A DNA stretch of 64,000 nucleotides from Streptomycetaceae bacterium (GTDB taxonomy: Bacteria; Actinomycetota; Actinomycetes; Nanopelagicales; Nanopelagicaceae): contig JAIXXJ010000021.1 of the NCBI GenBank assembly GCA_027490815.1, positions 62,001 through 126,000 on the forward strand, given 5' to 3'. Below the pieces are notes generated by a model that was given only the letters and a program-made list of their open reading frames with translations, was not told the DNA's origin and did not search any database. The position numbers and the translations under genes are program-made. This document shows, one piece after another, positions 49,401 to 50,686 of the stretch; positions within the stretch are counted from its first letter, which is position 1; the number at the start of each line of letters is the position of its first letter.

Positions 49401-49595
49401 GAAAACGCGGGCCTCTATATGGTGAGTTCCGGGCATTCCATTTGCTGTTGGTGGGCCCTCATAAAACGTCCACGTCGGACCATTTTCACGGGAGTTAACA
49501 GTTTTCTCAAAGACGGAGTTGTCGCGCCAGAACTTTAAAATCTGGTGTTCCACTTCAGGCAGATCAACCGATGCAGATATTTGTCGAAACGACAT
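46479..49595 (-). CDS. ileS: Isoleucyl-tRNA synthetase
   Basis: Class I synthetase that charges tRNA-Ile. The HIGH-like motif is seen as MPGTHHIEARV near residue 52-62 and the KMSKS motif as DGRKMSKHLGN; the editing-domain and zinc-binding type cysteines (CPRCGTGLSD, CWRCHTA) are present, as in the eukaryote-like IleS form common in actinobacteria. The track start at 49742 lies within the T-box leader; the ATG at 49595, encoding MSFRQISASVDLPEVE, gives 1038 residues. It is inverted relative to its neighbours and controlled by a T-box. Confidence 0.95.
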   Translation of the reverse strand: MSFRQISASVDLPEVEHQILKFWRDNSVFEKTVNSRENGPTWTFYEGPPTANGMPGTHHIEARVFKDVFPRFHTMKGKYVERKAGWDCHGLPVEIAVEKELGFSGKGDIEKYGISQFNDKCRESVQRHVSAFTEMTDRMGFWVDFDQAYWTMSPEYVESVWWSLKEIWKKGLLVQDHRVAPYCPRCGTGLSDHELAQGYETVTDPSVFVRFPVTSGELQKLKASLLVWTTTPWTLVSNTAIAVHPEVEYVVLKVSVEEQEDEVLVVAKALIESVKGEKKILQTILGKDLEKITYQRPFDYVEIPDAHYVVLATYVTTEDGTGLVHQSPAFGADDLAVCRSYGLPVVNPIAPDGTFLKEVPVVGGVFFKDADKALVKELKASGALYKHQQYEHSYPHCWRCHTALMYYAQPSWYIRTTSIKDALLRENASTNWHPQTIKEGRYGDWLNNNIDWALSRNRYWGTPLPIWRCENKHEICVDSLKELGQLAGKELSNLDPHRPFVDDITFDCSECDSTMIRVPEVIDCWYDSGAMPFAQWGYPHKEGSVEKFKASYPADFICEAIDQTRGWFYTLMTIGTLVFDQSSYKTVLCLGHILDKDGRKMSKHLGNVLEPMALMDQHGADAVRWYMLAAGSPWSARRVGHENLNEVVRKTLLTYWNTVSFHALYAKASNFELSQTPSLADRPLMDKWIISELNLLIANVDSALEGFDSQVAGRELAKFIDDLSNWYVRRSRRRFWDGDVAALATLHECLVTLTQLLAPLVPFITEHVWQELVIPTDPTAPLSVHLSDFPISKSDQINGELGNQVELTRRIVELGRATRAESGIKIRQPLGRALIAAKGWSELPEQMREQIADELNVLELEDIANADGDLVDVSVKANFKSLGAKFGGAVQEIAKAIAGVDPTKLVKQLRNEGSTSIAEWTIGLEDLVITEVPKSGWSVSSHDGESVALDLQLTPSLVLAGNVREVIRFIQERRKSEGFDISDRINIAWNGNPEIIAAIESDQPRIENEVLAVSMLHDKSIAMGDSENGLEVVLAKSV

Positions 49596-49596
49596 T

Positions 49597-49812
49597 AAAA
49601 AACCCCCAGAGAAAATAATCTGGAGGGACGAAATCTGCAAATGCAGTTTTCGCGGTACCACCCACCTTGCGTCTACACCTTGATGCATCCGCCGCTTTTG
49701 ATCCCACTTGCTAGTTCTAGGTGGACCTTTATCGAGGACCACTTCTTCCAGCAGGCTCGTGAGGTGATAGCCCCGTCATTGCCAGTTATGTGAGGAGATC
49801 AGTCTAGATGAT
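49597..49812 (-). promoter_or_regulatory. T-box riboswitch of ileS
   Basis: On the minus strand the leader holds the T-box sequence AAGGTGGGTGGTACCGCG (49668 to 49651), whose UGGU bulge matches an ACCA tRNA end. Upstream, a short hairpin GGCT-AGCC (49772 to 49754) carries AUC (49768 to 49766), the isoleucine codon, as candidate specifier. Downstream, CCCTCCAGA pairs with CTGGGGG and is followed by six T (49627 to 49597), a terminator that ends one base before the ATG. The GGGGG of this stem is also the only Shine-Dalgarno candidate. Confidence 0.92.
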
Positions 49813-49879: not shown

Positions 49880-50686
49880 ATGCCTAAGAAGCCTGTTAAG
49901 AAAGCGGTCGCAAAGAAGGCGGTAGCAAAAAAAGCCGCACCGGCCAAAAAAGCTGTAAAGAAGGCTGTTAAAAAGGCGACTAACAATAAGAAGCCGATCA
50001 AAAAAGCTGCACCAGTAAAGAAAGCTGCTAAAAAAGCACCAGCCAAGAAAGCCGCACCAGCCAAGAAGACGGCTATAAAGAGCATTCCCATAAAGAAGGC
50101 TTCCGGTAAAGGCTTTCCATCAAAAACAACTTTAACCGTTGATGAAAAGTCACAAACGGTTTCAGTTTCAACTGTAACTGCAACTGTTATTGCACCAGTT
50201 GTCGAAGAGCGACGGTTGGTTATGCCGCCGCCACCACGACCTGCCAAAACCGGCAAAAAGATTGCACCCCTTAAACCAATAAAGAGTGCACCAGTGCCTG
50301 TTGTTGCAACGGAGGCAGAAACACCATGGACGGCCGCTGAACTCAAGGCTGTAAGAGCAGAGATTTCTAAAGAGCTCGATCGTTTGCGCAATGAACTTGC
50401 AGTTGTTGAATTGGAAATGGACGAGCTCATTCAAGAATCCGGTGAGGGAGCAGGCGATGACCAAGCCGATGCTGGAACAAAAACATTCGAACGCGAACAT
50501 GAGATGTCCTTGGTAATCAATGCTCGTGACATGGTTTTACAAACCGAACGGGCTTTAGAAAGAATAGATTCCAAGAACTATGGAAATTGCGAAGAGTGCG
50601 GATCACCCATAGGAAAGGCCCGCCTTCAAGTATTTCCACGTGCGACGTTGTGCATGCTGTGTAAGCAGAAGGAAGAGCGGCGCTAA
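49880..50686 (+). CDS. TraR/DksA-type zinc-finger protein with histone H1-like Lys/Ala tail
   Basis: A 268-residue protein of two parts. Residues 1-~78 are almost wholly Lys, Ala and Pro in KKA/PAKKA-like repeats resembling bacterial H1-like DNA-binding tails. After a proline-rich linker, residues ~152-268 form a DksA/TraR-type unit: a long helical hairpin (LKAVRAEISKELDRLRNELAV) and a C4 zinc finger with NCEECGSPIG and LCMLCK. DksA-like proteins bind RNA polymerase in the secondary channel; the basic tail could bind DNA or RNA. It precedes lspA by two bases. The combination, not each part, is unusual. Confidence 0.88.
   Translation: MPKKPVKKAVAKKAVAKKAAPAKKAVKKAVKKATNNKKPIKKAAPVKKAAKKAPAKKAAPAKKTAIKSIPIKKASGKGFPSKTTLTVDEKSQTVSVSTVTATVIAPVVEERRLVMPPPPRPAKTGKKIAPLKPIKSAPVPVVATEAETPWTAAELKAVRAEISKELDRLRNELAVVELEMDELIQESGEGAGDDQADAGTKTFEREHEMSLVINARDMVLQTERALERIDSKNYGNCEECGSPIGKARLQVFPRATLCMLCKQKEERR

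Follow-up and report, generated by a model that had tools for sequence, protein, structure and literature searches.

A class II T-box upstream of ileS with a U-run between the Shine-Dalgarno sequence and the start codon: a candidate for control at two levels

The ileS leader of a member of the Nanopelagicaceae (assembly GCA_027490815.1, contig JAIXXJ010000021.1, positions 62,001 to 126,000; these 64,000 nucleotides are hereafter the window) raises the question of whether a T-box of a supposedly translational kind could also terminate transcription. Actinobacterial ileS T-boxes that hide the Shine-Dalgarno sequence (SD) were described in 2005 (PMC1262725), and the T-box database, which offers no sequestrator prediction, assigns transcriptional control to class I and translational control to class II (PMC7778990). 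Class II T-boxes are thus regarded as translational, a background that the initial annotation had given correctly (PMC1262725, PMC7583486), and the one in the window bears a conserved terminator signature. We incline, by a small degree, to read it as a class II ileS T-box with a dual platform, which would terminate transcription and block initiation on the transcripts that escape.

Anatomy of the leader

The leader and its gene lie on the minus strand, where reading the sequence located every element proposed earlier (Table 1). In most of the T-box leaders from the genus, the probable -10 element TAGACT or a near variant stands 15-27 nt 5' of Stem I; in the window, transcription is predicted to start at about 49794. 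GTG 49742 was rejected as the ileS start, as its open frame passes through the T-box; an in-frame ATG inside the loop was seen in a single relative (L003). The divergent neighbour (49880-50686, plus strand) encodes a zinc-finger protein of the DksA/TraR type whose long N-terminal tail is rich in lysine and alanine.

Table 1. Features of the ileS leader and gene, in window coordinates
Feature	Position	Strand	Evidence or value
Probable promoter -10 element TAGACT	49801..49806	-	TAGACT or near variant recurs in genus leaders
Ultrashort Stem I, specifier in apical loop	49753..49784	-	RNAalifold covariation, 41 genus leaders
Specifier codon AUC (isoleucine)	49766..49768	-	AUCACC invariant; matching tRNA
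Stem II, GGAAGAA / UAGAAC S-turn-like strands	49710..49752	-	Covarying pairs 36-84, 37-83, 38-82
Stem III	49669..49695	-	Consensus pairs 107-156 to 109-154; 14 double changes in 109-154
Antiterminator/antisequestrator GGUGGG-UGGUACC-GCGAAA...UUUCGU-CCCUCC	49622..49666	-	Pairing kept in genus
T-box UGGU, complement of the 3' ACCA in uncharged tRNA-Ile (discriminator A)	49657..49660	-	Invariant; tRNA sequence
Terminator/sequestrator hairpin CCUCCAGA-UUAUUUUC-UCUGGGGG (stem-loop-stem)	49603..49626	-	-12.6 kcal/mol
Shine-Dalgarno GGGGG, 3' arm of hairpin	49603..49607	-	7 nt before ATG
U6 tract	49597..49602	-	T-run in genus T-box leaders
ileS start ATG	49595-49593	-	Sequence
ileS, isoleucyl-tRNA synthetase, 1038 aa	46479..49595	-	Pfam tRNA-synt_1, E 8e-118; start MSFRxI kept in genus

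The presence of a T-box, as first proposed, is borne out by covariation, by the invariant UGGU within a canonical UGGUACC box and by a cognate tRNA. Structure prediction with RNAalifold on 41 genus leaders recovers the covarying stems, with compensatory changes in Stems I-III and in the antiterminator. The lower pair 4-33 of the 32-nt Stem I appears as AU, GC, UA and CG, with 24 double changes, and the upper pair 13-26 as GC, GU and CG. The short specifier hairpin with AUC that had been suggested corresponds to the apical loop of this stem, where AUCACC is found in 41 of 41 genus leaders with no different codon in the alignment; ATCACC is likewise found in the sequences compared from other clades. 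The genome encodes tRNA-Ile(GAU), recognised as one close match to that of a relative, and its discriminator A fits both the specifier AUC and the box UGGU. The S-turn-like strands of Stem II are recognised by sequence alone (GAAGA invariant, TAGAAC common across families), and a region is present between Stems II and III where class II has its Stem IIA/B pseudoknot.

The search of the window against Rfam at gathering cut-offs gave zero matches. The whole RF00230 model aligns with the leader, the sole T-box match in the genome, and its score (20.4 bits, E 0.014, under a gathering cut-off of 93) argues against class I membership and not against class II. Weak Rfam matches to NsiR1 and Spot 42 were rejected, having only a hairpin and a U-run in common with the leader. 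The leader shares the antiterminator/terminator logic and U-run of the Firmicute transcriptional T-box (RF00230, class I), but has neither the long Stem I nor the elbow-binding module of the latter, and scores far under the model's cut-off. Its likeness to the actinobacterial translational ileS T-box (class II; Nocardia farcinica, Mycobacterium tuberculosis; PMC1262725, PMC7583486, PMC10651847) extends to the ultrashort Stem I with an apical-loop specifier and no elbow-binding distal module, the S-turn-like strands of Stem II, Stem III, the UGGU box and the ileS target. In both, a CCUCC arm serves the antisequestrator as well as the SD sequestrator. The comparative evidence, much stronger than the Rfam score, identifies the leader as a class II (ultrashort-Stem-I) T-box. 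What the window adds to the class II system is a U6 directly after the sequestrator, filling the spacer between SD and AUG and making the hairpin a formal intrinsic terminator.

Two competing folds predicted before the start codon

The initial annotation had noted a stem and six T adjoining the ATG, with GGGGG inside the stem as the only SD candidate, and both observations hold. The hairpin has a G+C-rich stem of 8 bp, 5 of them GC pairs, with the U tract directly after it, and the seven bases between SD and ATG consist of six U and one A. No second SD-like purine run was found within 30 nt of the ATG, and nearly all relatives have GGAGG or GGGGG at the SD position. Across the aligned leaders 86.6% of cells are paired in the hairpin, double changes occur in 22 cells against 10.2 in shuffles, and the true register is the best of all slid registers in this test of pairing and covariation. 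The hairpin and U-run formally match a terminator pattern that has 3 occurrences in the 600-bp region where 0.8 are expected. Base rates were taken from 191 kb of the source genome and from 200 kb of a relative's. In the 191 kb, hairpins at or below -12 kcal/mol followed by at least five T occur about 0.04 times per kb per strand, and chance would align such a signal with a particular start codon in the order of 1 in 10,000 cases.

The arm CCUCC is common to this hairpin and to the alternative antiterminator, whose strands AAGGUGGGUGGUACCGCG...CGUCCCUCC reach 49622 and whose 3' arm also pairs with the downstream SD region. The base pairs GG.GGG.GCG / CGU.CCC.CC are retained in all genus leaders, with one mismatch in the arm throughout the genus, the window included (GG[CU]GGG against CCCUCC). 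Across the class, the six bases 5' of UGGUACC covary with the six 3' of CGU in 34 distinct types, and the outer four pairs are formed in 0.91 of cells compared with 0.65 in shuffles (shuffle maximum 0.78). This class-wide covariation of the GG.GGG / CCC.CC arm supports the antisequestrator. The alternative pairings are established by computation, as are the anatomy, its conservation and the derived origin of the U-run.

Without tRNA, the OFF fold of the window leader is calculated at -27.4 kcal/mol and the ON fold at -20.8, a preference of 6.6 kcal/mol for OFF, in keeping with a T-box whose default state is off. The unforced minimum fold of one genus leader (L019, -33.2 kcal/mol) is likewise the terminator fold. 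In the unextended ON fold 6 of the 8 hairpin pairs can persist, and the separation of the two states may consequently be incomplete in these models, where full opening of the hairpin requires the outer GG to pair with CC.

How the leader would respond to tRNA, whether the polymerase actually terminates and what relative weight the two levels of control carry, we infer from this architecture. Uncharged tRNA-Ile(GAU) would pair at two places, through its anticodon with the AUC of Stem I and through its ACCA end with UGGU, stabilising the antiterminator with GG.GGG paired to CCC.CC. The CCUCC would then be occupied, the U-run would be left without a proper stem and the SD would be exposed. With charged tRNA, the CCUCC would pair instead with GGGGG, in a hairpin adjoining U6. 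In this OFF state the polymerase could terminate just before the AUG, and the SD would be concealed on any transcript that escaped. The proposal of control at both levels made in the initial annotation thus stands in part: the double use of the hairpin and the conservation of the U-run support possible dual control, while termination by the polymerase is predicted.

Distribution and origin of the U-run

Fifty leaders of the genus were read, of which 37 have a T-box and 13, each from a different species, do not. A U-run of at least five bases, mostly 6-7, ending at the ATG or within two bases of it, occurs in 29 of the 37 T-box leaders and is missing in 8. It starts at the end of the stem or one base later, and persists although the sequences of stem and loop vary (CCAGA, CCAAGAG and CCAGUUCC types). 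The pattern of T-box, U5 and ATG was retrieved from 11 of 395 genomes of the class, belonging to 1 of 137 genera, the source genus; its reversed control gave 0 matches in the same 395 genomes. In about 60 ileS T-boxes of other actinobacterial families and genera no U-run precedes the start, and all of them hide the SD with a CCUCC or equivalent arm. Within the family, T-boxes without U are found in other genera (L278, L280, L286, L288, L291, L293), the remaining ones having lost the T-box.

The hairpin that sequesters the SD is accordingly the ancestral, class-wide state, and the U-run an addition specific to the genus, lost again in some of its species. Such a history, in which an actinobacterial translational switch made of a hairpin and an anti-SD arm received a U-run within one genus, leaves little room for a purely transcriptional T-box in which termination does everything and SD hiding is incidental. 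The U6 immediately 3' of the hairpin speaks for that explanation, but the same arm sequesters the SD throughout the class without any U-run, and we regard the explanation as improbable.

The distribution of the U-run requires five changes on the IleRS tree. The U-run was probably gained once, close to the base of the genus, and lost at least twice; the changes would fit losses in the clade of L024, L027, L031, L294 and L299, in L308, and wherever the whole T-box was lost; the tree being midpoint-rooted with moderate basal support, there may have been two separate gains. That all U-run species belong to one genus might also be explained by a functionless T-run inherited by chance from their common ancestor. 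Such a T-run would hardly have survived the deep splits within the genus, over which the neighbouring loop sequence changed, nor would ileS be the one gene with six T in the spacer between SD and start when 147 SD-led genes are sampled from two species; we consider this explanation very improbable, and the comparative evidence argues that the U-run has been selected and is not accidental. The only other sampled SD-led gene with five T in this spacer (L259:8459, plus strand, on the same contig) encodes a DsbA/thioredoxin-fold protein and has an imperfect inverted repeat in its leader.

In the species without a T-box (L015, L017, L018, L022, L026, L028, L029, L039, L045, L047, L049, L050, L051), TAGACT stands exactly 9 nt before the ileS ATG with no SD, or, in L047, 9 nt before an upstream in-frame ATG. 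Here ileS appears both to have turned leaderless and to have given up this regulation along with the T-box.

Possible termination at the U-run and level of control

Hairpins average -15.1 kcal/mol in U-run leaders and -11.1 kcal/mol in leaders of the same genus without U (Mann-Whitney p 1e-4, a value that ignores relatedness; of only 3 independent contrasts, about 2 agree and 0 oppose). A survey of 302 genomes gives 5' terminators an average of -16.5 kcal/mol and 7.0 bp (PMC2965389), to which hairpins near -15 kcal/mol with stems of 7-8 bp come close; most hairpins of the genus are stronger than that of the window. That such terminators exist in the source genome is demonstrated by a strong hairpin and U-run located after a tRNA gene. 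Hairpin-plus-U signals are scarce there, as intrinsic terminators are in Actinobacteria generally (PMC2965389), and the genome encodes Rho. Among the few strong signals on contig L254 (L254:6793, L254:14493, L254:5543), one follows a tRNA-Glu gene and another is a long palindrome whose two strands both carry T-runs. The Stem I of the window has no elbow-binding module, which the review literature considers necessary for the fast capture of tRNA by transcriptional T-boxes (PMC7583486), and this counts against termination. On balance, the chance that transcription terminates at the U-run seems somewhat better than even.

These elements also bear on a purely translational T-box, in which the U-run would serve as an unstructured U-rich spacer, as a standby or S1-binding site, or as a transcription pause leaving time for the tRNA to bind. 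The translational anatomy of all ileS T-boxes in other genera and families, the paucity of intrinsic terminators in the genome and the retention of the switch without U in five members of the genus (L024, L031, L033, L035, L046) agree with it. The other genes sampled here do not use U-run spacers, however, and a spacer alone accounts poorly for the start of the U-run at the stem or one base on, for its near-constant length of 6-7 and for the stronger hairpins that accompany it. We therefore find a purely translational switch unlikely, if deserving of some weight. As for the fullest form of the dual reading, namely a T-box devoid of the elbow module that both terminates and hides the SD, born of a U-run in the SD-AUG spacer within one genus and lost in sister species, we would place it a little short of an even chance.

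Dual platforms with the ribosome binding site in the 3' side of the terminator were predicted in 2007 for metabolite riboswitches (PMC2258182), and there too one hairpin is placed to stop transcription and hide the binding site. In contrast to those metabolite sensors, the sensor in the window is a tRNA-binding T-box and its platform looks derived from a translational one. What appears new is thus a dual platform on a class II T-box, arisen inside a single genus, dual platforms as a kind being already known. The earlier prediction, the ancestral class-wide hairpin and the restriction of the U-run to the genus were all omitted from the initial annotation. A literature search that did not extend to Sherwood 2015 and Vitreschak 2008 found no account of a terminator in a class II T-box, so an earlier mention is possible. 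Sister species differ naturally in having or lacking the terminator signature, which makes two questions testable: is an ultrashort Stem I quick enough to control transcription, and how does an expression platform shift between translation and transcription? If the dual reading is true, one small step would have sufficed for a riboswitch to change the level at which it acts.

The matches listed from a broad pattern scan were mainly Firmicute T-boxes in which a start codon happens to adjoin the U-run, and these were discarded. Among the matches listed, filtering left one clear outside analogue, the valS-like gene L077 of a Thermaceae metagenome bin. In this unrelated phylum the T-box leader ends in GUGGGGGAGGAUUUUUUAUG, with a similar U-run adjoining the start codon and the SD mostly after the stem.
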